Source: Halothermothrix sp. (lineage in GTDB: Bacteria > Bacillota > Halanaerobiia > DY22613). From it: a DNA stretch of 64,000 nucleotides. Each line of letters starts with the position of its first letter. The first letter of the stretch is position 1. The stretch covers positions 124,001 to 188,000 of the forward strand of contig JAENYK010000009.1 of NCBI GenBank assembly GCA_016841825.1. Reading direction: 5' to 3'. The notes beneath the pieces were generated by a model, which searched no databases, was not told the origin of the DNA, and saw nothing but the letters and a program-made list of their open reading frames with translations. Shown in pieces: positions 2,256 to 50,469 of the stretch. A program made the translations under genes and the position numbers.

Positions 2256-3812
2256 TTACTCATAAATAGTTCGGGCTAATGGATGTAAGGATAACCAACG
2301 ATCTTCAGCATCGTATATATCTGCCAGAGAATATATATTAATAATCCCCAGCTCATTGCATAAATTTGATACTCTTTGTAAACGGTCATACCTTTCTTCA
2401 CGGGAAGGCATCGGGTTCTCAATGTCATAAGTCTTAAATTTGGTCAGATTAATCACCGATTGGGGGTAGATGCACTCATAATCATAATCTGCAGAAGCTC
2501 CCTGTCCTTTAGGAAAATAATAATAAGGATGAGCCTCCAGTTCATAGATATGTTTATGGTTCTCCCGAATAAAATCAAGGGTTATATTAAAATCTGCTTC
2601 AGTCTCTGAAGGAAAGCCTACGACCCAGTAAGTAGTTGTCCTAATCCCTGCACTAGCAAGAGATTTTAAAGATTCACTCATATTTTCAGGAGTAATTTTT
2701 TTATTCATCACCTTTAACATCTGTGGTGATGCACTTTCCATCCCCAGACGAACCCGATATAATCCTGCTTCTGCCCATTTCTTTGCATTCTCCCGATTCA
2801 TAACCTGGGGTTCTGCCCGTAGATAACCATCAAACAAAATTCCTGCTTTTTCTTTGATTAACTCAGTCGTTAGGTCTTCTATATAAAAGTTCATAATCGC
2901 ATCACCCATAAAGAAAGTATTCTTCTCATGTTTCTCTTTCAATGCAATCAGTTGTCTTGTCAGATACTGTGCGTCTTTTTTCCGATATGGTCCCCACTGC
3001 ATTTTTTCAGAGCAAAATTTGCAGCTATATGGACATGAGCGGGCACCTTCGATAGTTAAGTGAAAATAACTGTCAATATTGAAATCAGAAAAATCTGGGG
3101 TAGTGCTCTGATTTAAGTCCAGAACCTTCTCATCTATATCCTTTAGATAGAGCATTCGTTTATCGGGAAACTCACCGGCAAGAAACTTTGCCAAAAGAAG
3201 CTCTCCTTCGCCGATGATTACCTTGTCAACATAACCATAACAATCTAAAAGGATCTGTAAGTTTTCAGTACCAACAGCTAAATCATCGGTAAACACCCCT
3301 CCCCCCATGATCGTAGTCACAGAGGGAAAGTTGTTTTTGACTATTTTGTGGACAAATAAGGATGAAGCTAAAGAAGTAGTATATGTACTTGTACCAACAT
3401 ATTCATATTGATTAATCTGCACTTCTTCTAATACAGTTTTTTCTAAAATGGCAAAATAACTCTGAACCAACTGAATTAAGTCGTCAATAACTGTCTGCTT
3501 AATCTCATAAACCTCCAAAAGAGTCTTTAAAAGCTGGTAGCATTCTTTTTGAGATGCACCGTTGATATAGGCGAGTAAATGTTGATTTAAAATATTCCAG
3601 TATAGTGAATACCCATTCAGGTGACGCCTGTTGACTTTGTCGATGATACCGAAATAGTTATGGTGCATATTCCACAATTTAATCTGGGTATTAAAATTAA
3701 AACATTTTACTAAATGGCCTTCTTTTTCTAAGTATGACTTCAAGACTGATATCCCTAAAGGTGGGGAAAAGGGAGTTGAAAAAGGTGGTACAGTTAGCAA
3801 AACTTTACTCAT
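2256..3812 (-). CDS. B12-binding-type radical SAM enzyme between the two NRPS genes
   Basis: A 518-residue radical SAM protein. The N-terminus has the pattern of B12-binding-domain radical SAM proteins (PPFSTPFSPPLGI, an 'IMGGG' loop near 170, and 'IIGEGE' near 200). The iron-sulfur ligands are C260, C264 and C267 in SCPYSCKFCSEK. Proteins of this class often methylate unactivated carbons, and in NRPS clusters they act as tailoring enzymes. The ATG at 3812 is preferred because AGAGGTGAT sits just upstream; a GTG at 3821 would add three residues but falls inside that site. The gene starts 32 nt after the large NRPS stop and ends 28 nt before the next NRPS start, so it is inside the operon. The exact reaction cannot be read from sequence; C-methylation of the peptide or acyl chain is an inference. 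Confidence 0.88.
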   Translation of the reverse strand: MSKVLLTVPPFSTPFSPPLGISVLKSYLEKEGHLVKCFNFNTQIKLWNMHHNYFGIIDKVNRRHLNGYSLYWNILNQHLLAYINGASQKECYQLLKTLLEVYEIKQTVIDDLIQLVQSYFAILEKTVLEEVQINQYEYVGTSTYTTSLASSLFVHKIVKNNFPSVTTIMGGGVFTDDLAVGTENLQILLDCYGYVDKVIIGEGELLLAKFLAGEFPDKRMLYLKDIDEKVLDLNQSTTPDFSDFNIDSYFHLTIEGARSCPYSCKFCSEKMQWGPYRKKDAQYLTRQLIALKEKHEKNTFFMGDAIMNFYIEDLTTELIKEKAGILFDGYLRAEPQVMNRENAKKWAEAGLYRVRLGMESASPQMLKVMNKKITPENMSESLKSLASAGIRTTTYWVVGFPSETEADFNITLDFIRENHKHIYELEAHPYYYFPKGQGASADYDYECIYPQSVINLTKFKTYDIENPMPSREERYDRLQRVSNLCNELGIINIYSLADIYDAEDRWLSLHPLARTIYE

Positions 3813-3844
3813 TGAGATCACCTCTAATTTTTAAGATTTAAGAG

Positions 3845-21875: not shown

Positions 21876-23474
21876 TCAAACAATCTCCAAATTATTAATA
21901 GCCTGTCGGAGAATTCTATCGGGTTCCGGAATAAATTTGTTTCTAAGCAGAGCATTAAATCCTTTCACAAAACTCATGATCTGCTCCTGACTCATTCCTT
22001 TCCCCAAAAGGGTTGGAATAATCCAGAAGTCAAAATTATATTGGGGAAGCCAAATAGAGTTTTTGACAGTCAAAAACATTTTGTCCACCCAATCTGATGC
22101 CTGCATGGAGTTCATTGTAACATGGCTCCATTGAAAACTCATCCCCTCAATCTGTAAAGTTTCTTTTTGCTCCATGATTGGAGTAACTGGATCACAATAC
22201 CAGATCTGAGCCCGATAAAATGTCGGACTCGTCTCTTCTATAAAAGCAATGGTCTCCTGAACTGTTCTTTCAGTCTCACCCGGAAAACCAATAATTAAAG
22301 AAGCGAAGTTAAGAATGTCATATTTATTTAACAGTGCAATGCCTTTACGATACTTGTCAATCTGAGCACCTTTGTTCATCTTCTGTAAAATTCCCGAACT
22401 TCCTGATTCAAGCCCCAAAAAGACACCCGCACAACCACTTTCTTTCATCAATTGAACAGTTTCTTCATCTAAAAATTGACAGCGCAAATATGAAAACCAT
22501 TTATAACCATACTTATTTCGCATCATCATTTTACATATCTCTTTAAAACGATTTTGGGGAATATTAAAGGTATCATCAATAAAAGCCAGATATTTGACTT
22601 TTCCATTATCTTTCAGGTAACTTAGCTCTTTTTCTACTGTGCTAACTGATGCAAGGGTATATTTCCCAGCCCGCACAGGATAGCCACAAAAAGAGCAGTT
22701 AAAAGCACATCCCCTTGCTGTACGAAGATTAACGGTTCTACCTAATTTATCGGAATCAAATAAACTCCAATCAACATAGTTTTTATCTAAGTCATTATTT
22801 TCAAAAGAAGAGTCTGTAGATATTATTTTTTTGTCTTTCAGATAAAAGATATTATCAATGTCGGCAAATGATTTATTATTGATTAATGCATCAATAATCC
22901 GATATAAAGCATATTCCCCTTGAGAACTGTTAACATAGAAGTCAGCATTTAAAGACTGCAACATAAACTTTAATGTTTCCGAGTCAAATTGTGCGCATTG
23001 GTTGGATATAAAAGGGCCACCAATTATAATCTTCACTGACCTATTGTGTTTACGTATAAATGTAATTATTTCAATAATTGGCAATGGCGAGACATAAAAC
23101 GTGGTAGTAATTGCAACAGTTCTGACATTGGTTTTTAGTAATTCTGCCAATCTATCCTTCTCATGTTGAAAAATATTTATGTACTCTGTTATTAAACCTT
23201 GTCGGTTCAAGAAAGTACTTAAGTAAGCCACAGCTAGACTTAAAGGTTCTGCACAGTGAATGTTACTATCTATCCCTTTTCTTTTTCGCAAATAATTTAA
23301 CAGTCCAGCGGGAGTATATTTTTTTTCTTCGTATTCCACAAAGTTTAAGTTCAAGTCCCGATAAGCACCAGAATTTTCACCCATACTTCTCAGCACTCTT
23401 TCATAATTAGCAAAATCAGGCTCATTATACCCTATTAGAATGCAATCTATAGGTTGAGTTATGGTTTTTCCCAT
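21876..23474 (-). CDS. B12-binding-type radical SAM enzyme, first gene of the NRPS operon
   Basis: A 532-residue protein with a B12-binding-like N-terminal region (residues about 1-180, with IIGGPFIS) and a radical SAM core with C256, C260 and C263 in GCAFNCSFCGYP. The beginning (IDCILIGYNEPDF, then SMGENSGAYRDLNLNF) looks, from memory, like the group often annotated as PhpK-like radical SAM methyltransferases found beside NRPS and PKS genes; I cannot confirm this by search, and it should not be read as P-methylation. The ATG at 23474 is chosen because AAAGGAGG lies 12 nt upstream; an upstream ATG at 23507 would put that site inside the coding region and has no site of its own. A 226-nt gap without a clear promoter separates it from the large NRPS, so co-transcription is likely. 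Confidence 0.85.
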   Translation of the reverse strand: MGKTITQPIDCILIGYNEPDFANYERVLRSMGENSGAYRDLNLNFVEYEEKKYTPAGLLNYLRKRKGIDSNIHCAEPLSLAVAYLSTFLNRQGLITEYINIFQHEKDRLAELLKTNVRTVAITTTFYVSPLPIIEIITFIRKHNRSVKIIIGGPFISNQCAQFDSETLKFMLQSLNADFYVNSSQGEYALYRIIDALINNKSFADIDNIFYLKDKKIISTDSSFENNDLDKNYVDWSLFDSDKLGRTVNLRTARGCAFNCSFCGYPVRAGKYTLASVSTVEKELSYLKDNGKVKYLAFIDDTFNIPQNRFKEICKMMMRNKYGYKWFSYLRCQFLDEETVQLMKESGCAGVFLGLESGSSGILQKMNKGAQIDKYRKGIALLNKYDILNFASLIIGFPGETERTVQETIAFIEETSPTFYRAQIWYCDPVTPIMEQKETLQIEGMSFQWSHVTMNSMQASDWVDKMFLTVKNSIWLPQYNFDFWIIPTLLGKGMSQEQIMSFVKGFNALLRNKFIPEPDRILRQAINNLEIV

Positions 23475-23507
23475 TTTATGCAAATTCCTCCTTTTTATTA
23501 TTTTCAT

Positions 23508-24535: not shown

Positions 24536-26221
24536 CTAGCTCAATCTGGTCCGAGATATCTGTTCCAGAATACTGGGATCTTTAATCTTGTGATCCTCTG
24601 CCAGCAAGGTGATCTTCGAGATGATCTCTGCGGTTTTTGGATCGTCATCCATAAATGGTAAGAAGATTCGCCCACGATGCTGTGAATGAACTGGCAGAAT
24701 AAACAGAGCTCCCCGGGCCAGCTGCTGAACAAGTCCACTACCAAGGTGGACGATATACTCTCCCAGGCTGCCCTTAATAAAAGCATGTACTCCCTTTAAT
24801 TCAACATTCTTCAGTTTGAGCAATCTCACCATCTCGCCAACCAGCAGACTCCGCAGTTCAATAGTTGACAGACTAGCTTCAGGATCAACCCCTCCAACAT
24901 GGGCAACACTAACTACCAGATCAATATCTCGCATACGTTCAGAAAAGATTACTGGAGGAATATCAGCAATCGCTACCTGAACACCCGTTCTCCGATCACT
25001 GAATTGAACCCCTTCGATAGTAGGAGCTTCAACATCGGCAGGCGAGAACCAATCAGCTAACAAACGGATATGAGTGATAATGTTCTCCTGATAATCTACC
25101 TTCTGCACTCCTTCATAGTAATCTGCCACCCACCCTCGACTCTGAAGTAGAGCAATTGCCTTTTTGGGCTGAATCTGATGTCCGGCATACCTCGAAGAGC
25201 TCATTCCCTCAGCCAATTCATCCCGGTTAGGCAGATACAACTCTCTGAATACCTGTTTAAAGGGCTGAACTATCTGCCGCCGGAAAATATCTCTTTGAAA
25301 CTCAGACCATTCTCCACTCTCAAAAAGATGAACTGGATGGGCCACAAGACATCTGGCGTCAGCGTTAAGGGGATGTAGATGACCTTGAACGTCAATCAAT
25401 CCACTATCCTGAAAATATCCAAGTTTATCCCCACACTTGAAGACCAGTTTTTGCAAAAAAGGAGCAAATACAGGGTGCAGGGTAAGATTCTGCAGTTCAT
25501 CAACCATAAATTCAGCTGCTGATTCCATTGCCTTCTCCAGCAGCGATCTGGCCCTGCTGTGTTGTTCCTTCAGTGATTTTATTACAGCCTTTAGTTCTAC
25601 AATGTACTCATCTTTTCTTATTACAGCCGGGATAGATTTTCGGATTTTGTCATCTCTGGTGATTACCATCTTTGCTTTGCCCAGATCATTAATGCTAATC
25701 TGTACCTCATATTCTCCAACTAACCTGGGTTGCAAAAATCTTGCAATTGCCCGAATCTTTTCTGTCTCCATATACCAGGTAAAACGAATGACATCGGCAA
25801 AACCAGCATTTCTGGCAAGATTTTTCAGAGAAATGGTTACTACTTTACCTTCACTGTCACGCCTTTGGGCTCCAAATTGTTTACTTTCCTTTAAAAACTG
25901 CTGCAAAAACTCATATCTATGCAGTATCTCTTCCTTATCATTCAGCGGAATAAGGCCATAACTTAACACATAATCTTTGTTCCGCTTTTCTGTAATCACC
26001 TGCTCTGCTTGCCCAACTGTTATTCTGCCCAGAACTGCATCTACAAAAATCTGAGCCCGTTTATGGATACGTCCTCCACCGATATACTTAGCACTCTCAT
26101 ACACCATTTGAAACCGTTTTTCACCAAGAGCCGCGTATGCTTCGCGAAACCAATTAATATCAAAAGAACCCATTGCAAATTCCTCCGGTGTAAGAGCCGA
26201 ATATCGGGAAACAATCGTCAT
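24536..26221 (-). CDS. C-terminal part of a split DUF5724/DUF4132-type protein
   Basis: 561 residues resembling the C-terminal portion of very large DUF4132/DUF7737-type proteins; function unknown. The ATG at 26221 overlaps the stop of the upstream frame and follows a run of eight A (26228-26221) without any ribosome binding site. If the A run is read with a -1 slip, or really has nine A, the two frames join as ...FSEKK-MTIVSRYSALTPEEF to one protein of about 1,639 residues. So this is either the product of frameshifting, an independently initiated polypeptide by translational coupling, or part of a gene split by mutation or a base-calling error. The region near the end (VHLGSGLVQQLARGALF, then HRGRIFLPF) is typical of the conserved C-terminal domain as I remember it. 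Confidence 0.75.
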   Translation of the reverse strand: MTIVSRYSALTPEEFAMGSFDINWFREAYAALGEKRFQMVYESAKYIGGGRIHKRAQIFVDAVLGRITVGQAEQVITEKRNKDYVLSYGLIPLNDKEEILHRYEFLQQFLKESKQFGAQRRDSEGKVVTISLKNLARNAGFADVIRFTWYMETEKIRAIARFLQPRLVGEYEVQISINDLGKAKMVITRDDKIRKSIPAVIRKDEYIVELKAVIKSLKEQHSRARSLLEKAMESAAEFMVDELQNLTLHPVFAPFLQKLVFKCGDKLGYFQDSGLIDVQGHLHPLNADARCLVAHPVHLFESGEWSEFQRDIFRRQIVQPFKQVFRELYLPNRDELAEGMSSSRYAGHQIQPKKAIALLQSRGWVADYYEGVQKVDYQENIITHIRLLADWFSPADVEAPTIEGVQFSDRRTGVQVAIADIPPVIFSERMRDIDLVVSVAHVGGVDPEASLSTIELRSLLVGEMVRLLKLKNVELKGVHAFIKGSLGEYIVHLGSGLVQQLARGALFILPVHSQHRGRIFLPFMDDDPKTAEIISKITLLAEDHKIKDPSILEQISRTRLS

Positions 26222-29200
26222 TTTTTTTCAGAGAAAGTATCATTAACATGAGCATGAAAATACCAACCTGCAGATTTCAACCCGGGCCAGCCCAAATATC
26301 TTTCAACAATGTCTAACCATTGAGGTGCATACATTGCCGCATCAATCAGTTGTCTATCAGTAACCTGGCGATTCTTCAGCAGTTTTCGTAAAGTGTCTTC
26401 ATCCTCGTCCTCATCGGGATAACAATAGGTCAGCAGATGACTAAAAATCTGCTGTTTTGTAGTACTGCTTCCGACAGAGTTATATCCACGTATATAAGTC
26501 TCTTTCACCGAACCAACCAGTATATCAACAAAAAACTTTGCCCCAATACAATGATAAATTTTTATAGCAAGATGGCTAACTTCTGTCGGCATATCTCCCC
26601 GTCTTAATTCAATTCCTACCACCCGGTCGATGACATTTTTGCAGACTTGATTAAACCCCGGGCATAATGAATATTTTGAATTATTACGACGTCTGGGAAA
26701 GGTCAAGGCATGTAATTTTTGTGGACTGCACGGGCGGCCGCAGAGTTCTGCATATAGTTCACGTTCATCAATTAATTCCAACTCAAAAGCCCTTTCCAAA
26801 TCCTCCAGTTGGATTAACGCACAGGATCGAAATCCAGATACTCGATAGAAAGCATATCTAAGATAAAAACTTTTTTGGAAGCTCTCAGCATCATCCTGAT
26901 GTGCTTTCAATAGCTCATACCAGAATGAAATCTTGTGACAATCAACCAGAGTGCGCGGCTGATTATGGATATTCTGATTATGTTTCCGGATGACAGCAAA
27001 ACTCTCTGGAGGAATAGTGCAAAAAATGTATGATAACATATCATAACAGATCTGGAATATTTCTTTTGAAGGATAGTCCTGCAATAACAGAGATAGGATA
27101 GTATAAATATGTCGTGTGTATGGTGTTCGCTTAACAAACTCAGTTAACTCAGTCAAATCGTGCGGGAAAACCTCCTGCAGCTGTCCATCATCATCCTGGC
27201 AGAATCCATAATAGGTTGTTTCCTTGACACAACGATAATAGAACAAAACATCCAGAATATTTTGTGCTGATAACTCCAACTTCTTAACCGCATCGCGCCA
27301 AACTTCAGTTAAAGGATAATTATCAAGGGTTAAAGTATTCCTTCCGGGTTTGGGAAGAGACTTTTTACATAAGTTGAACTCACCTCCCAGGACAACTTTT
27401 TTCCGGGAACCATCCCAATATTCGGCTTCATACTCATAATTTCGGTTCGCCTTAAACAGATCACTAAACAGTTTAAAAATAGCTTCTAGTTTATCGGGTT
27501 CAAAACCGGGAGTAACTCCTGTCGGATATGTGATCTGCGGCAGAGAGAGTTCTAAATTAGGATCGTAGAGCCCAAAACCGTTTTGTGCTGTAAAATTATG
27601 CTTATTCCCAATCTTATTGATCAATTCTCTGACCAGCTGTGACTGCGAAGCTTCAGATAAGACTGTCACCATCTCCCGACACTCCTCAGCAATTGATTGG
27701 AATTGAAGACTTTCATCAATAATAGCTACCAGATCCAGAGCAGCCAGAGTCTTCTGTTCATCATCAGCATTCAGCAAACGCTGAATGCTAAACAGTAGAT
27801 TATTGGGAGATTGCGTAAGTAAGATTGAGATAACATTCTGCCTGAGATCACCGGCTTTATAGCGCAGCATATCTTCGATCATCCGATAATCATCATCTGT
27901 CAGCTGTAGTTTCTTTATCACAGCCATCGCTGCCTTTCGCACATAAGGACTCCGATCACCCATAAACTCAATAATCGCCCTTTTCTGCTTTGGGGTATTA
28001 ACTTTACCCAGATAGGTGATCAAAAATTTGTGTCGGGTATTAACGCTCATCCTATCTGTATAATCCAATATTACATCCACCAACCGCTCAGTCGGTCTGT
28101 TTGACAGAGCCAGCAGCATTTTTATCGCTAGCTGTTCAGCATCAAGGGAGATGTCTATCCAGGAGAAGACGCTCGCTTTAAAAACAACTTTCTTCCTGGG
28201 CAGAGCATCGAGAATTGTCTTCAACTCAAAAAACAAATCTTCCAGGTCGTAAATGTCCTGATACTCTTTTAACCAATTCATTTCATTTAACGGAATATAG
28301 TCAAATTGTATATGAGGATAAATATTTGCAACTACCCAACAGATAACTTCAAGGTCTGGATTCCTTAATTGCCGACAAGCTAACTCATATTGGAGGAGTG
28401 GAAATTGGATCTGCTCTAAGAAATAAAGGGCAGTTAATTTTTTATACTTCTCCTCTGCAGCTAAGAGTTCACTCAGTTCATCAACTATCTCGCTAACTTC
28501 ATCAAAGGCGCTGGCCCAGATTCCGATATAGATCAGTAAAGTATCATTACTTTGTAAACATTCCTCCAGATAACTTCTCTCAGTTAGACATCTATAGACC
28601 GTTTCCAGAGATTTTTTGATAACTGCTGATTTAGCAGCAATAATCCCCATGCCTGTCCAGACATCAAAGGCACGAACAACTGACGAAAATCTAACCAGAT
28701 CATAATCAAGGATAATTTTGAGAAGATACAAAAAGCCCCCCCGCGACCCTCCATCCATGGATTCTACAATCTGCTGGCGCAGCCCTTCCTGTAACTTAGC
28801 CGCCAGCAATAAGTCGCCTAACCATTTGTGAGTCATACCATTATGACTCTTTACTATTCCCTCGATAATCTCCCGGGTGATCAAACCTGTATTGTTATCT
28901 CCACAAATAATATCATAAATATTCTGCATCACCAGTTCATTGCCTTGATCAATCTCCAGAGCTAACAGATCTCCAATTACCCAATTTCCAGTAAAACAAT
29001 CAGATTGTTCAGCAAAATAACTCTCATAAGAAAAATCCAGTACCATCAGTTCAACCATACCCCTGAGTTTCCTTGCAGCAGAGAGTAAGTATAATTTATC
29101 ATTCAGCTTTGATCTGGCAGAACGCCTGTTATATCCATTAGAATACGGATACTCAGTAATTCTATCCCAGACTTCTTTAAACTTTATCCCCCATTGTTCA

Positions 29201-29454
29201 CCCAGCAAAACCCCAAGCACCTCGAATTCGGAATCAGAAAAGATATCTGTGATCCCGCTCGTCTCTCCTGACCACAGAGTTTTCTCTAAACTATACTTTT
29301 CTTCGGGATAATAAAAACCCGTTCTGTCTTTTGTAAAACAGGAATAAACTGCATCAAACAGTCTTTTGTTTCTTTCAGATGTCAAATTAGTCTCTGAAAT
29401 AATTCTGGACCAATACTGACGTAATTCAACAGTACCTGGACTATAATTCACCAC
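26218..29454 (-). CDS. N-terminal part of a split DUF5724/DUF4132-type protein with HEAT-like repeats
   Basis: 1,078 residues, soluble, mainly helical. HEAT-like repeats are visible around residues 450-600 (for example DRSPYVRKAAMAVIKKLQL). The remainder resembles the N-terminal and middle parts of large DUF5724/DUF4132 proteins; assignment is from memory. Such proteins are of unknown biochemical role. The start is one of two consecutive GTG codons (29454 or 29451) after GAGGTGAT, which overlaps the end of the small upstream gene (stop at 29463), so translation is coupled. The stop TGA (26220-26218) directly follows GAA AAA AAA, and the C-terminal half continues in the -1 frame. Confidence 0.75.
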   Translation of the reverse strand: MVNYSPGTVELRQYWSRIISETNLTSERNKRLFDAVYSCFTKDRTGFYYPEEKYSLEKTLWSGETSGITDIFSDSEFEVLGVLLGEQWGIKFKEVWDRITEYPYSNGYNRRSARSKLNDKLYLLSAARKLRGMVELMVLDFSYESYFAEQSDCFTGNWVIGDLLALEIDQGNELVMQNIYDIICGDNNTGLITREIIEGIVKSHNGMTHKWLGDLLLAAKLQEGLRQQIVESMDGGSRGGFLYLLKIILDYDLVRFSSVVRAFDVWTGMGIIAAKSAVIKKSLETVYRCLTERSYLEECLQSNDTLLIYIGIWASAFDEVSEIVDELSELLAAEEKYKKLTALYFLEQIQFPLLQYELACRQLRNPDLEVICWVVANIYPHIQFDYIPLNEMNWLKEYQDIYDLEDLFFELKTILDALPRKKVVFKASVFSWIDISLDAEQLAIKMLLALSNRPTERLVDVILDYTDRMSVNTRHKFLITYLGKVNTPKQKRAIIEFMGDRSPYVRKAAMAVIKKLQLTDDDYRMIEDMLRYKAGDLRQNVISILLTQSPNNLLFSIQRLLNADDEQKTLAALDLVAIIDESLQFQSIAEECREMVTVLSEASQSQLVRELINKIGNKHNFTAQNGFGLYDPNLELSLPQITYPTGVTPGFEPDKLEAIFKLFSDLFKANRNYEYEAEYWDGSRKKVVLGGEFNLCKKSLPKPGRNTLTLDNYPLTEVWRDAVKKLELSAQNILDVLFYYRCVKETTYYGFCQDDDGQLQEVFPHDLTELTEFVKRTPYTRHIYTILSLLLQDYPSKEIFQICYDMLSYIFCTIPPESFAVIRKHNQNIHNQPRTLVDCHKISFWYELLKAHQDDAESFQKSFYLRYAFYRVSGFRSCALIQLEDLERAFELELIDERELYAELCGRPCSPQKLHALTFPRRRNNSKYSLCPGFNQVCKNVIDRVVGIELRRGDMPTEVSHLAIKIYHCIGAKFFVDILVGSVKETYIRGYNSVGSSTTKQQIFSHLLTYCYPDEDEDEDTLRKLLKNRQVTDRQLIDAAMYAPQWLDIVERYLGWPGLKSAGWYFHAHVNDTFSEKK

Positions 29455-36722: not shown

Positions 36723-36977
36723 AAAAAAAACCTTATCCTATCTCTTACAAGAGACGGATAAGGTCCGTGGTTCCACTCTACTTGGTCGAATACTCAACCC
36801 ACTCAATAAGGATAACGGCTTTAACCGGATAAGAATACTCCCTTATAATAATGGTTTCCTCTTATCAGCTCTGGGGTGGTCTTCAGATATCCATACTTAA
36901 GGTGCTTTCAGCCTTGACACCATTCTCTGTAATAAGCTCTGGCTATCTTACTCTTCCCTTCATCGCTACTGGCTATT
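36723..36977 (-). promoter_or_regulatory. T-box riboswitch leader of thrS
   Basis: The minus strand carries the T-box antiterminator sequence AGAGTGGAACCACG (36779-36766), which overlaps a terminator with stem CCTTATCC/GGATAAGG and eight T (36762-36723). Upstream are the conserved apical stem I region GAATGGTGTCAAGG and, on its 3' side, GAAGACCACCCC near 36875, where ACC triplets can serve as the threonine specifier codon. Uncharged tRNA-Thr would stabilise the antiterminator and switch thrS on. Confidence 0.9.
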
Positions 36978-40151: not shown

Positions 40152-40642
40152 AAACTTTTGACCTCCTTAGTCAACAATTTAATATTATATTTCTTATTCC
40201 CCAAAATATTATTTTTTCCTTCTTTAAAGCGTATTTTTTTTAATTTATTCAAATTTAGTCACTTTCTTGTTCTCCTTAACCAAAGTAACATAACCCTAAT
40301 AAATTCTCTTTTCCCTGATAGTGTATTCTAATTCTCATTATTCTTATAATCATCAATTACGGTTTTATAACTGATGATTATAAAGCCAGTTGCTTAGATT
40401 AACCATCTAAAATCGGCTTATTTTGAAATTAGTTCTTTTTTCCTGTCAAAGATCATTTTATATGTTTCAAAGAACCATATACTATCTCATTAATAAGAAT
40501 ATTATATCTCAATGGACAGCCAATTTGACCTGCAAATCAGCTGAAATTTTTATTTGATTATTTTATTCCATCTTATATGACTGATGTAAATGTATTATAC
40601 CAACACCCATTGGTGTTGAACATATTCATCTGATAATAACAC
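40152..40642. other. Long intergenic region upstream of the lipoprotein gene
   Basis: About 490 bp. It contains a 12-bp perfect stem TTATAATCATCA/TGATGATTATAA with a 16-nt loop (40344-40383), without a T run, and the palindromic promoter-like repeat at 40594-40622. I found no coding sequence. Confidence 0.5.
40594..40622 (-). promoter_or_regulatory. Promoter-like element with an operator palindrome in the spacer
   Basis: Minus strand TGTTCA, 17 nt, TATAAT. The spacer holds the inverted repeat CAACACC-CATT-GGTGTTG (40601-40618). A related copy is at 47741-47768 before the VOC gene. Placement of a dyad between the -35 and -10 elements resembles MerR-type or repressor control. Confidence 0.5.
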
Positions 40643-40687
40643 AAAAAAAGTACTTTCTCACGAATAATCAGAGAAAGTACTTTTTTT
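40643..40687 (-). terminator. Terminator of the maturase-peptide unit
   Basis: A 10-bp GC-containing stem (AGTACTTTCTC / GAGAAAGTACT) extended by A/T pairs, with an 11-nt loop and a run of seven T on the minus strand. It begins 3 nt after the small peptide stop codon. Confidence 0.9.
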
Positions 40688-40689
40688 GA

Positions 40690-40815
40690 CTATGCGATTG
40701 GGCCAGGAATATCATTACCCCAATCACATTTATCAGGGTTGTAGATCTCGCACCAACCAAAATACGGACAAACAATTTTCGCACTTTCATTAATTGCAGG
40801 AACTAATATTTCCAT
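40690..40815 (-). CDS. Candidate RiPP precursor peptide, 41 residues, three Cys
   Basis: A short gene read directly from the sequence. The ATG at 40815 is 4 nt after the stop of the radical SAM/SPASM maturase gene, and its ribosome binding site (AAAGGGGGGTGA) overlaps the maturase C-terminus, so translation is coupled. The peptide starts MEILVPAINESAKIV (a leader-like segment) and continues with a Cys- and aromatic-rich part containing CPYFGWC (C16, C22), then NPDKCDWGND (C30) and an end PGPIA. There is no signal peptide. A terminator follows at once. Promoter, maturase, peptide and terminator make a closed unit, which is why I call it the maturase substrate. Known RiPP classes made by SPASM enzymes include sactipeptides and ranthipeptides with Cys thioether links; I do not recognise this peptide family. 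Confidence 0.78.
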   Translation of the reverse strand: MEILVPAINESAKIVCPYFGWCEIYNPDKCDWGNDIPGPIA

Positions 40816-40819
40816 TATC

Positions 40820-42124
40820 TCACCCCCCTTTCCCTGTAATTTGTTCATAAAGTTTATTTTTTACAAATAATTTAAGTGTCTCTTCTAAATGCACCTCAGA
40901 TTTGCAGGTTTTGCCCTGTGTATTTCGTACCCAATAACAACCTCCCATACATATAGGCAGGAATTTACATTCTCTACACTCTTCATCTTCTGTAGAATCA
41001 TGCAGCAAACGAAGAGAATCCAATTGCAGCTGCTTTTGATTTTTTTGGATATCGAAGATGCTCCCGGTAGACTTCTCATAATGTCCATAATCAGTCCAAC
41101 AGTGATAGATTCTTCCTCTGGAATCAATCACAAAACTATTGCCAAGCGTTACCCCACAGGGATTAAACCTTCTGGCTGGATATTTTCTCTCAATAAAACC
41201 GCGAGATATCTTCTGTTCATTTAAACGAAGCTGGATCTTATTAAACTCTTTATTCTCTAAACAACGACTTTTCATCTCATCAGTAAAGGCATTGATTAAG
41301 GAAAATTCCAGCGCTATCTTCTCTTTCAAATCAGGTCTGTCAAATACATCCATAATCTGATCTGCCTTCTCGAAATTCTCTTGATCAAGATTGACCCTGA
41401 TCACAAATTTATTTAAAATATCGATAGAATCAATAATATTATTCACGATTTTGTCAAATGTCGGACCTCCATTTTTGAGTGGACGTTTTTTGTTATGCAG
41501 CTCTCTTTCTCCATCAAGAGTAATCTGGATCGTCCCAACATTTATCTCTGATAATCTACTGGCAATTTCCGGATCTAGTAAATATCCGTTTGTAACAATA
41601 CTAGAGTAATATGTACAATTTTTTTCCCGACATAGCCGTTGAAATTCACAAGCCAGCTCTGTGATCACATCTAATACCATTAAAGGCTCTCCACCCATCC
41701 AACAGACCGAAAGCCTCCCCTCTGGACATAGATGTTCATCGACAAACTTAACTAACTGAGCCATCGTCGCCGCATCCATTTTGCCATCGACCTGTCCATT
41801 CTCAAAACAATATTCACAGTTAAAGTTGCATTCCATAGTCGGTGCAACCGTTAAACTGAGGTCATCTTTAGCGAACCTTTCTTCAAACATTTTTCGACGT
41901 ATATACAGTAGTTCATCATATTCAGAATCAACTATGAACCCGCACTTTCTTAAGTCAGTAATGAACTGGTCATCCAGATTCTGATCGTCTTTTGGAAAGG
42001 ATAAGAGCTGCTGATAGTTCTCCTCCTTTAACTTCGCTAATGCACTGGTTAATGAGTTAAATACCAAATATGTACCTTCTTCATAGGGAATATATATATT
42101 GTATTTTGATACTTTGCTGCCCAT
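40820..42124 (-). CDS. Radical SAM/SPASM peptide maturase
   Basis: 434 residues. The N-terminal 85 residues (SKYNIYIPYEEGTYLVFNSLTSAL) look like the segment before the barrel in peptide-modifying radical SAM enzymes. The radical SAM cluster ligands are C99, C103 and C106 (ECNFNCEYCFE), followed by WMGGEPL at 142-148. The C-terminal SPASM domain has the full set of Cys for auxiliary clusters: C323, C342 (IDSRGRIYHCW), C383, C386, C392, C396 and C407. Such enzymes install thioether or other crosslinks in peptides. A consensus promoter lies at 42175-42203, and the candidate substrate is encoded 4 nt downstream. An anaerobic sulfatase-maturase role is less likely because no sulfatase is present. 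Confidence 0.92.
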   Translation of the reverse strand: MGSKVSKYNIYIPYEEGTYLVFNSLTSALAKLKEENYQQLLSFPKDDQNLDDQFITDLRKCGFIVDSEYDELLYIRRKMFEERFAKDDLSLTVAPTMECNFNCEYCFENGQVDGKMDAATMAQLVKFVDEHLCPEGRLSVCWMGGEPLMVLDVITELACEFQRLCREKNCTYYSSIVTNGYLLDPEIASRLSEINVGTIQITLDGERELHNKKRPLKNGGPTFDKIVNNIIDSIDILNKFVIRVNLDQENFEKADQIMDVFDRPDLKEKIALEFSLINAFTDEMKSRCLENKEFNKIQLRLNEQKISRGFIERKYPARRFNPCGVTLGNSFVIDSRGRIYHCWTDYGHYEKSTGSIFDIQKNQKQLQLDSLRLLHDSTEDEECRECKFLPICMGGCYWVRNTQGKTCKSEVHLEETLKLFVKNKLYEQITGKGG

Positions 42125-42174
42125 AATTAACCCTCCAATATATTTCTGATGTGTCTAGTAATTTATGTATTTCC

Positions 42175-42203
42175 ATTTTAACACTTATATTTGCTATTGT
42201 CAA
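42175..42203 (-). promoter_or_regulatory. Promoter of the maturase-peptide unit
   Basis: Minus strand TTGACA (42203-42198), 17-nt spacer, TAAAAT (42180-42175). The start of transcription would be near 42168, about 45 nt before the maturase ATG, which leaves no room for another peptide gene upstream in the same transcript. Confidence 0.82.
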
Positions 42204-42276: not shown

Positions 42277-43293
42277 TTAAAAAAACATCTTATGTCTCTT
42301 TATTTTCGGCACAAATTCGTATCCCCGGTAGACCTCTAAACCCTCATCAGGAAGAAGCGGTCCAACTATCGCCACTTTTTTCCTTCCCATATTAAGTATC
42401 TCGTTACATTTAGGCTTAGAATGTCCTCCACTAGATTGCCAAAGCATCTCCTGGGATACACTAAACACAACTTTCGAGATTCTGGCCCAATGAATCGCTC
42501 CAGAACACATTACACACGGTTCCGTACTCGAATAAAGCGTAAAACCCTCTAACGAAATCTTCTTATTCGATTGACAATATTCCCTGATTACATTTATTTC
42601 AGCATGTGCAGTAGGGTCGGATAACCTGAGACTTTTGTCTTCACTTTGACACATTAGCATTCCATCGTAAACTAGAACCGCTCCAAACGGATCTTCCCCA
42701 TTCTGTCGTGATTGATAGGCCAAATCTATAGCTAGCCGCATAAAATATTCATCTTCATTATACAATTCTCTAAACTTTTCCTTTGTCATCCTTACTAGAA
42801 ATCCATCATCAACCAGGGAATCATGTTCAAATCCAAACTTTAGTAATAGCTGCTGGCCTGCTATATTATCTAACACGATCAAATCTTCCATAACTTGTCC
42901 ACCAAATTCAAAAAAATAATATCCTAAAAGCAAATATATTGCTTCTGTAGCATAACCTTTACCCCTATGTACTGCTGCAATTTTTATATTCAACTGGCCA
43001 GTTTTTGCCTTCGCATTATAGCGATGAAAACTAATTTCACCAATTGGTGTATCATTCAAATCAAAGATCAAACAATAATAATCTGTCTCACTTCCGGGAG
43101 AGACCATGCGTCTGTACCACTTTTCTATTTGTTCATCAGATAAGCTGATAGACCTACCAACTTCTTTCATCGTCTCTTCGTCCATCCACAACCATTGAAT
43201 GTATTCTAATTCATCATATCCTGGTGGACGAAGATATATATTTTTACCTTTTAAAGAACGGTGTTTCTGTCCTACAATACTGTTATAATCCAT
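42277..43293 (-). CDS. GNAT acetyltransferase-nucleoside deaminase fusion
   Basis: 338 residues with two domains. Residues about 10-180 are a GNAT-type N-acetyltransferase (IYLRPPGYDELEYIQWL; acetyl-CoA loop in VHRGKGYATEAIYLLL; LLKFGFEHD). Residues about 187-320 are a zinc-dependent cytidine/guanine deaminase-like domain: catalytic HAEINVI (TAHAEINVI) and zinc ligands in PCVMCSGAI. The pair GEDPFGAVLV is usual for the guanine deaminase/tRNA adenosine deaminase group. Both active sites look intact. Whether the two act on one substrate is unknown. It lies about 150 nt upstream of the maturase gene, which has its own promoter, so the genes need not be linked in function. Confidence 0.88.
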   Translation of the reverse strand: MDYNSIVGQKHRSLKGKNIYLRPPGYDELEYIQWLWMDEETMKEVGRSISLSDEQIEKWYRRMVSPGSETDYYCLIFDLNDTPIGEISFHRYNAKAKTGQLNIKIAAVHRGKGYATEAIYLLLGYYFFEFGGQVMEDLIVLDNIAGQQLLLKFGFEHDSLVDDGFLVRMTKEKFRELYNEDEYFMRLAIDLAYQSRQNGEDPFGAVLVYDGMLMCQSEDKSLRLSDPTAHAEINVIREYCQSNKKISLEGFTLYSSTEPCVMCSGAIHWARISKVVFSVSQEMLWQSSGGHSKPKCNEILNMGRKKVAIVGPLLPDEGLEVYRGYEFVPKIKRHKMFF

Positions 43294-48055: not shown

Positions 48056-48877
48056 CTAAAAACAGTCTAATGTCCCCTCTTTAAGGCTTATATAAATCAT
48101 AAATTTCAACACTATAGTACCAATTAAGAAAAACAACATTCCTATTCCCAATTCCATTAACATCAATTTAAAAACCAATAGGTGAAGACTTCCTACTTCA
48201 ATTACTGTTCGAATTGCTAGAATTCCATTAGTCATGGGAAGCCAATAGGCGATTTTTTGCATTATTGGAGGTAGATAGGTGATAGGAAAGGTTACACCAC
48301 AAAAAATCATCAGAGCTAACCATATTGACGATGATACATACATACTGGTTCGCACATAAAAAGTAATTCCTGCAATGATCATACTTAATCCAATCATGCT
48401 TAATGCAAGAAGCAAAGATACAATTATATACACGAATAATAAAACCAAATTCCCTTTTAACAGGTTGAAAGTCAAACCAATACCCAAAAAAATTACCAAA
48501 GATGTAATAAATCCCTCAAGTATATTTAAAGTATTTCTGCCGATTACAAATCGGAAAGACCGAAAAGGTGATATCACTATGTAAGAAAGTGTGCCCATCC
48601 ACTTCTCATTAGCTATTAAACCAGACCCACGAGTAATTATACTTCTTCCGACTGTCACAGTACAATTACCAATCATTGCAAATAATGCACCTTTACTACC
48701 TCCTGCTGCGTAACCTACCAAACTAAAGAAAATAATTTCTGAGATCGTTTTTACTAGCCATGCTGGTAAATAAAATTTTGGTGGGAAAAAATAAAACAAG
48801 TTTTTGGTTGACAATATAATCTCTTGCTTAAAAAAATACAGTTGTTTATTCAATACTTGGAAAAATCTCCAGTCCAT
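48056..48877 (-). CDS. ABC-2 type transporter permease
   Basis: 273 residues from the ATG at 48877 (GAGGAGGG upstream), overlapping the end of the preceding permease gene by 28 nt. Six hydrophobic segments can be seen, with the ABC-2 permease pattern near the end (GVTFPITYLPPIMQKIAYWLPMTNGILAIR). It would pair with the neighbouring permease to form a heterodimeric exporter channel. The substrate is unknown. Confidence 0.87.
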   Translation of the reverse strand: MDWRFFQVLNKQLYFFKQEIILSTKNLFYFFPPKFYLPAWLVKTISEIIFFSLVGYAAGGSKGALFAMIGNCTVTVGRSIITRGSGLIANEKWMGTLSYIVISPFRSFRFVIGRNTLNILEGFITSLVIFLGIGLTFNLLKGNLVLLFVYIIVSLLLALSMIGLSMIIAGITFYVRTSMYVSSSIWLALMIFCGVTFPITYLPPIMQKIAYWLPMTNGILAIRTVIEVGSLHLLVFKLMLMELGIGMLFFLIGTIVLKFMIYISLKEGTLDCF

Positions 48878-49629
48878 CGTGCCCTCCTCTCTACTCTCTG
48901 TAAAATGAGAGCTGCACCAATTAAATAACAACCACCCGATAACAATAGAACAGTCAAAATAGTTAAATTTTCCTTATAAATCAAAATCTCCTGTATCCCC
49001 CGTTGTGCCCAATATAGAGGTATTAATTTAGATATATACTGAATATACTTTGGAAATACCTCTATTGTTACAGCGATACCACTCAACAGATAAACTGGGT
49101 AAGTAAGAAATTGTATTAGAATCTCTGGTTGTCTAAAACTAATAAAACAGACACCTACCAATAGACCTACACAACTAAAAGCAAAAGTACAAACTATCAT
49201 GATTAAGGCTATTTGATAAATACTAAAAAAAACCCAGATTGACCCTACAAAGATTTGTGCCCAGATTAAACTTACTATAAAAGAAACATTTGAAGCAAAG
49301 GAAACAGCTAAAGCTTTACCAATTAAAACAAAATATATCGAGTGAGGAGAAACCATCAAGTAGTCAATAGTGCCTAATCTTTTTTCCCCCTCAAGTATAA
49401 ATGATGCTCCCCAGATATTAGCTCCCCACAAACCAAGCAAGCCAGCTTTTATTACTGCAAAAAAAATCACATTGTCGGTATGACCGCTATAAATAAAATA
49501 AAACATAATCGACAGACCCATGGGCACAATGATAGAATTAATAAAAAATAGTCTCTCTGTCAATATAAACTTTAAATGAAACTGAAAAGCATTGACAATA
49601 GTTTTTAGATTATAAAAAAAAGATTTCAT
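48850..49629 (-). CDS. ABC-2 type transporter permease
   Basis: 259 residues with six hydrophobic segments and the ABC-2 pattern YLLSGIAVTIEVFPKYIQYISKLIPLYWAQRGIQEIL. The start codon follows the stop of the ATPase gene directly. Together with 48056-48877 it forms the membrane part of the exporter. Confidence 0.88.
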   Translation of the reverse strand: MKSFFYNLKTIVNAFQFHLKFILTERLFFINSIIVPMGLSIMFYFIYSGHTDNVIFFAVIKAGLLGLWGANIWGASFILEGEKRLGTIDYLMVSPHSIYFVLIGKALAVSFASNVSFIVSLIWAQIFVGSIWVFFSIYQIALIMIVCTFAFSCVGLLVGVCFISFRQPEILIQFLTYPVYLLSGIAVTIEVFPKYIQYISKLIPLYWAQRGIQEILIYKENLTILTVLLLSGGCYLIGAALILQRVERRARWTGDFSKY

Positions 49630-50406
49630 TTACCCACTTCCTTTCCTTTTACCCTTTAATACCGATATGTAAGCATCTTCTAGATTCATTTTTTCTACTT
49701 TGTTTCTAAAATCGTTTACAGTAGTAACTTCCTTTATCTCTCCTTTAAAAATCAAAGCAATTCGATCGGCTAATTCTTCAATCTCATTCATATAATGACT
49801 TGTTAAGATAATTGTTTTACCACACTCTTTTAGATTACGAATCATTTTCCTCAAATCATGGGAAGCCTCCACATCTAAACCTAACGTTGGTTCGTCAAGG
49901 AATAATATGTCAGGATCATGCAATAAACATCTTGCAATATGAATTCGTTGTTTCATACCTTTGGAAAATGTCTCAATCTTATCGTTCTGCCGTTCAGTCA
50001 TATCCACTAAGTCTAATAAATCATCTATCCTTTTTTTCAAAATCCGGGGAGGTATTTCGTATAAATTCCCAAAATATTCAAGATTATCTCTCGCTGTAAT
50101 ACGCCAATATAGTCCACGTTCTCCTCCATATAGTACACCAATTTTCTTTTGCACTTTCTTTGAATCTTTAAGAGTGCAATACCCATCAATGATAATTCGT
50201 CCCGTATTTGGTAAGGCTAAAGTGCTTAAAAGCTTAATTAATGTAGTTTTTCCGGCTCCATTTGGCCCAATCGGACAAAATATCTCTCCCGAGTTGATCT
50301 CCAAATTAACATTAGATAAAGCAACAATCTCCTTTCTTTTTCGCTTAAATATGCCAGATGTAGTAACATAAATCTTACTAACATTTTCAACTTGGATTAA
50401 GCTCAA
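49630..50406 (-). CDS. ABC transporter ATP-binding protein (ABC-2 exporter)
   Basis: 258 residues. Walker A is GPNGAGKTT, the signature motif is FSKGMKQRIHIAR, Walker B is DILFLDEPTLGLD, and the switch His is in LTSHYMNE. This is the DrrA/NatA-like class that powers ABC-2 permeases exporting drugs, lipids or peptides. A TTG at 50406, 6 nt after AGAGGTG, is the likelier start; the GTG at 50415 lies inside that site. Three genes 50406-48056 make a complete exporter. It is not adjacent to either the NRPS or the RiPP unit. Confidence 0.92.
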   Translation of the reverse strand: MSLIQVENVSKIYVTTSGIFKRKRKEIVALSNVNLEINSGEIFCPIGPNGAGKTTLIKLLSTLALPNTGRIIIDGYCTLKDSKKVQKKIGVLYGGERGLYWRITARDNLEYFGNLYEIPPRILKKRIDDLLDLVDMTERQNDKIETFSKGMKQRIHIARCLLHDPDILFLDEPTLGLDVEASHDLRKMIRNLKECGKTIILTSHYMNEIEELADRIALIFKGEIKEVTTVNDFRNKVEKMNLEDAYISVLKGKRKGSG

Positions 50407-50469
50407 TGCATTCACCTCTTTTTTATTATTTTACCTTCAAATTAATATGGGAGATTATATCATCTAGAT

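Follow-up and report, generated by a model that had tools for sequence, protein, structure and literature searches.

Does the 41-codon gene found directly behind a radical SAM/SPASM enzyme gene in Halothermothrix sp. encode the substrate of this enzyme and, if so, which modification would the peptide receive? We addressed this question in a 64,000-nucleotide stretch of contig JAENYK010000009.1 (positions 124,001 to 188,000), called the window hereafter. A preliminary description, made from the letters of the window, had read the two genes as a minimal RiPP unit that might represent a new RiPP class.

Organization of the two-gene unit

The unit is carried by the minus strand (Table 1). The maturase gene is followed, after a 4-nt gap, by the peptide gene, whose ribosome-binding site AAGGGGGG is located 7 nt ahead of the peptide ATG. 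This arrangement, including the ribosome-binding site buried in the end of the maturase gene, had been noted before and is borne out by the coordinates and by codon usage. The peptide gene scores +0.22 bits per codon, inside the range of 41-codon slices of the window genes (5th percentile 0.03, median 0.30) and well clear of off-frame slices, whose 95th percentile is -0.23. An in-frame ATG further upstream, at 40848, would give a 52-residue peptide. We rejected it as a start: it has no ribosome-binding site and would shift the first cysteine to residue 27, contrary to the family pattern described below.

The preliminary description also placed a consensus promoter ahead of the maturase gene and a strong terminator 3 nt after the peptide stop. 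The promoter is the top-scoring site of the region, but the match is weak evidence on its own because the number of promoter-type sites in the region scan (18) does not exceed that in shuffled sequences (14.9 +/- 3.9). On the 3' side, a strong hairpin is indeed present (-24.7 kcal/mol, z = -8.0 versus shuffles), starting 1 nt and not 3 nt past the peptide stop. Because the terminator scan did not list this hairpin, "terminator" is used here as a putative label. The scan probably missed it owing to its AU-rich character and to the U-run lying within the stem.

Table 1 Features of the two-gene unit (positions in the window)
Feature	Position	Strand	Basis
Probable promoter, TTGACA-17-TAAAAT with extended TG	42175..42203	-	11/12 matches; ca 50 nt 5' of the maturase ATG
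Radical SAM/SPASM peptide maturase, 434 aa	40820..42124	-	Reading frame, profile matches, alignment and model
N-terminal domain, residues ca 1-85, three strands then three helices (putative RRE)	41870..42124	-	AlphaFold model; CteB alignment
Radical SAM cluster motif, C99-NFN-C103-EY-C106	41807..41830	-	Invariant in 68 sequences
SPASM domain, seven Cys for two auxiliary Fe-S clusters	40904..41158	-	Alignment; NCBIfam TIGR04085
Ribosome-binding site AAGGGGGG of the peptide gene	40823..40830	-	Within the last codons of the maturase gene
Precursor peptide gene, 41 aa, MEILVPAINESAKIV-CPYFGWCEIYNPDKCDWGNDIPGPIA	40690..40815	-	Leader and first-Cys position fit the family
Leader, residues 1-15, M-x-I-L-V type (putative border with the core)	40771..40815	-	Family leader comparison
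Core, residues 16-41, with C16, C22 and C30	40693..40770	-	Two C-x3-N motifs, CEIYN and CDWGN
AU-rich hairpin 3' of the peptide stop, probable transcription end	40642..40688	-	Folding versus shuffles

A divergent SPASM maturase

The enzyme contains the ten cluster cysteines previously reported: C99, C103 and C106 in the radical SAM motif (CNFNCEYC) and seven residues in the SPASM domain (323, 342, 383, 386, 392, 396 and 407). None of the ten varies among 68 aligned homologues. An eleventh cysteine, C288 (window 41261-41263), is outside the cluster motifs and is kept in at least 90% of these sequences. Both domains score well above their thresholds (Pfam PF04055, 59 bits for a cut-off of 29.5; NCBIfam TIGR04085, 56.9 bits for a cut-off of 27).

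The AlphaFold model of the maturase has a pLDDT of 93 and a pTM of 0.90. Its N-terminal domain, mostly above pLDDT 90, is composed of strands 9-13, 18-23 and 28-33 and of helices 34-41, 52-60 and 71-83, and this order of strands and helices in the model suggests a leader-binding RRE. A Foldseek search gave CteB as top match over the full length (PDB 5why and 5wgg, E 9e-20, 443 columns). SkfB (6efn) was also matched (E 2.5e-11), and sactisynthases share the RRE-radical SAM-SPASM/twitch layout. The pair could therefore make a sactipeptide, with a bond from sulfur to C-alpha, or perform another radical modification of cysteine that is not of the ranthipeptide kind. However, the fold of the window enzyme is nearer to CteB and anSME than to SkfB, and the thioether formed by CteB is non-alpha (PMC11002830). 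We consider a sactipeptide, or such another modification, quite unlikely.

The best NCBIfam matches of the maturase are all peptide maturases, and every one of them is below its curated cut-off: Clo7bot (TIGR04334, 281.5 bits for a cut-off of 600), TIGR04463 (264/525), CefB (222/600), geopeptide maturase (180/400), the PapB family (130/340) and SCIFF maturase (75/425). A true Clo7bot member (L074) reaches 775 bits on TIGR04334. In a quick tree the window enzyme is unplaced, on a long branch (1.18) and in no supported group. Among the homologues gathered from genome contigs and whole genomes, identity to the window enzyme is 36-39% for the nearest and never exceeds 39%. An exact 8-mer search of genome and viral contigs confirmed no close homologue, and the genomes of the same class yielded no close maturase.

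The peptide was equally isolated in these searches, with no close homologue found. In line with the preliminary description, it matches no model of Pfam or NCBIfam, the latter also with E values up to 10. No second copy was found in its own genome and a tblastn search in plasmids gave no match.

By these sequence comparisons, the maturase appears as a divergent lineage without close relatives in the superfamily that comprises the Clo7bot, TIGR04463, CefB and geopeptide maturases. The idea of a new RiPP class is not supported: the enzyme is a member of a widespread superfamily modelled by NCBIfam, whose Cys-rich peptides have the same design. No experimental paper on Clo7bot, geopeptide or TIGR04463 maturases was found in the literature collection searched.

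A short leader shared by many of the homologous loci

Short ORFs near the maturase homologues were collected by requiring an ATG start, a ribosome-binding site and 24-80 residues. In the 96 homologous loci, this gave 326 ORFs on the maturase strand and 155 control ORFs on the opposite strand. A strict leader, M-x-[FYWILM]-[ILV]-[VI], combined with at least three cysteines, is found in 89 same-strand ORFs versus 0 on the opposite strand; the leader had first been spotted in the window peptide and the nearest loci, which makes the rule partly dependent on these, whereas the strand control is independent. A slightly looser leader retrieves 102 distinct peptides including that of the window, with the first cysteine at a median position of 16 (39/102 exactly at 16). 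The shared pattern is M-x-hydrophobic-[ILV]-[VI], often with proline at position 7, and a first cysteine near residue 16. The window peptide, which starts with MEILV and has C16 as its first cysteine, fits both features.

Because leader-type peptides are confined to the maturase strand and the window peptide has MEILV and C16, the short peptide is, as judged from sequence, very likely the precursor substrate of the adjoining maturase. A 41-codon frame arising by chance, or encoding a peptide unrelated to the maturase, would fit the lack of a family model and of homologues. However, the leader, C16, the ribosome-binding site, the codon usage, the 4-nt spacing and the hairpin point the same way, and leader and cysteines occur together in 0/155 control ORFs, which makes a chance origin very unlikely indeed.

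The pairing of maturase and precursor proposed in the preliminary description is thus sustained by the strand contrast and by the shared leader and C16. It had also raised the case of homologues lacking any similar peptide: under the strict rule, about half of the loci (46/96) carry a peptide with the same leader, which speaks for the pairing. Its remark that a downstream precursor is unusual is at variance with the family. In the 52 loci compared, including the window, peptides are only downstream in 32, only upstream in 17 and on both sides in 3. A single peptide is present in 29 of the 52 and, in 12 loci with the window counted, the peptide begins within 10 nt of the maturase stop or overlaps it. 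Four of the nearest maturases (36-39% identity; L011/L025, L012, L022 and L023) each have a leader-type peptide close by. That of L011/L025 is single and downstream, and this locus has the same plan as the window: the maturase gene is followed by that of one small Cys peptide, and the flank examined contains no exporter.

We identified no peptidase or peptide exporter adjoining the unit, in line with the preliminary description. The trait is shared by others: of the 37 informative loci, which bear a peptide and extend at least 3 kb downstream, 25 encode a nearby ABC exporter on the same strand and 12 do not. The lack of an adjacent exporter is therefore a minority state and not unique to the window. 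Taken together, the unit is a real, divergent, single-precursor member of the known radical SAM/SPASM RiPP superfamily.

In loci of Selenomonadaceae and other Clostridia (L055, L062, L067, L077 and L101), the maturase is followed by MKFLVxP-type peptides. In L062, L067 and L101, a rubredoxin-like protein is also encoded downstream.

Predicted chemistry

Our best explanation, which we regard as probable taken as a whole, is that maturase and precursor are carried by one mRNA as a bicistronic RiPP unit and that the enzyme, with its RRE and the leader, introduces one or more Cys thioether cross-links into the adjoining peptide. Gene structure, family, fold, conservation of the catalytic cysteines and pairing with a leader-type peptide are the directly supported parts of this explanation, and thioether formation is the most likely chemistry. 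Among established relatives, thioethers are formed between Cys and Thr by CteB, between Cys and Asp/Glu of C-x3-D motifs by PapB, and between Cys and Asn by the NxxC enzyme of Streptococcus (PMC8326336, PMC9413430, PMC11002830).

In the proposed mechanism, the ribosome-binding site within the last codons of the maturase gene would serve for translation of the peptide, whose short leader (MEILV..., residues 1-15) would be bound by the RRE-like N-terminal domain. A core residue would then lose a hydrogen to the [4Fe-4S]-SAM centre, and a core cysteine would be joined to that residue with the help of the SPASM clusters. The product would carry between one and three thioether cross-links, most likely non-alpha ones as in ranthipeptides, in which the cysteine sulfur is bound to a C-beta or C-gamma carbon. 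Any removal of the leader and any export would depend on proteins encoded elsewhere.

Our best guess for the cross-linked partners is C22/N26 and C30/N34. The window core contains two C-x3-N motifs versus 0.22 expected (P 0.0075), and five peptides together contain four versus 0.61 expected (P 0.0005), the motif being also present in L012 and L023; the pattern was, however, spotted after the fact and on very few peptides. Across all 102 peptides it shows no enrichment (P 0.21), C-x3-C and C-x2-[DN] being the dominant motifs. We take it as a hint to a possible cross-link site and no more. The C-x3-D/E pattern of PapB substrates was considered and set aside, since it is absent from the window peptide and C-x3-[DEN] is not above chance. 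It is doubtful that the unit represents a separate lineage that links cysteine to the asparagine four residues on (C22-N26, C30-N34), with a product acting without a dedicated exporter. If true, such a forward C-x3-N ring would be unlike those already known, namely C-x3-D for PapB and N-x2-C for Streptococcus.

The main rival to the thioether is a three-residue C-C cyclophane made by the same pair, for instance between W32 and N34, with the cysteines free or oxidised. The window core does hold W32-G33-N34, and XncB and OscB make Trp-to-Asn C-beta links at i/i+2 (PMC11002830). The relative L012 has CRWPN, and W-x-N occurs twice versus 0.22 expected in the five peptides (P 0.0125). However, W-x-N is not enriched among the 102 (P 0.37), the peptides of the family are rich in Cys and contain C-x3-C repeats, and the models of cyclophane makers score only 66 bits (YhhB) and 52 bits (GrrM/OscB), far below the Clo7bot and PapB models. 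These observations leave the cyclophane an unlikely product.

Genomic surroundings

Upstream, the unit is bordered by a single ORF that fuses a GNAT acetyltransferase domain with a TadA-like deaminase domain (window 42277-43293, minus strand). The downstream neighbour is a 579-residue protein with a carboxypeptidase-regulatory-like domain. A relative, G001, matches only stretches of ca 60-110 residues of this protein (E 3e-6 or weaker) and, because the match is short and weak, synteny with G001 cannot be used to show an insertion. Other genes separate the unit from a three-gene ABC-2 transporter encoded ca 6 kb upstream (48056-50415), and no evidence links this transporter to the unit. In the rest of the genome, a C39 peptidase domain occurs once, on a different contig. 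The best match to the ABC exporters of relatives is 27%, among 135 matches, and no exporter partner could be named.

The same genome encodes two further maturases of the superfamily. One (L007, contig C21) is geopeptide-type by its best HMM score and has five small upstream peptides of the MKLLVLRNN...C..C..CELGL type. The other (L006, contig C30) has no recognisable peptide in the flank examined and is followed by a radical SAM gene.

Other features of the window deserve mention. A 17.8-kb gene (5,934 residues) whose first 2,000 residues form NRPS modules (condensation, adenylation, carrier) has on either side a gene for a radical SAM protein whose B12-binding match is weak (2256-3821 and 21876-23507). 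The region 2256-23507 (minus strand) may be an NRPS cluster that includes a pair of cobalamin radical SAM enzymes. At 24536-29454 (minus strand), one large family is divided into two adjacent ORFs overlapping by 4 nt, with DUF5724 split across both, plus DUF4132 and DUF7737. A T-box leader (36747-36972, minus strand) is located upstream of thrS.

Comparison with known systems

The window offers a compact enzyme-substrate pair within a large superfamily: two genes and a 41-residue substrate with three cysteines. Its chemistry would inform a branch distant from the modelled families, and the shared short leader can be used to find small precursors overlooked by family models.

The Clo7bot system (TIGR04334; e.g. 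Paraclostridium plasmid NZ_CP094934) resembles the window unit by its maturase, which gives the best HMM match and a full-length alignment, and by its short Cys peptides, which start with an MKFIKKP-type sequence and have their first cysteine at residue 16. Clo7bot loci differ in having many Cys-rich peptides upstream and an ABC exporter, whereas the window has one three-Cys peptide downstream and no exporter. TIGR04463 and CefA/CefB (Cys every fifth residue) share the enzyme superfamily and Cys-containing substrates. In contrast to the window peptide gene, CefA on a Methylomagnum plasmid is a 2-kb gene adjoining a radical SAM C-methyltransferase.

CteB/CteA, a SCIFF ranthipeptide system, provides the closest solved fold over the full length and forms thioethers in a short Cys peptide. 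CteB is, however, only 17-18% identical to the window enzyme, and SCIFF precursors have six cysteines in ca 45 residues, unlike the window peptide. PapB/PapA (freyrasin) has a related radical SAM and SPASM region; its thioethers link Cys to Asp/Glu within C-x3-D, whereas the window core has C-x3-N.
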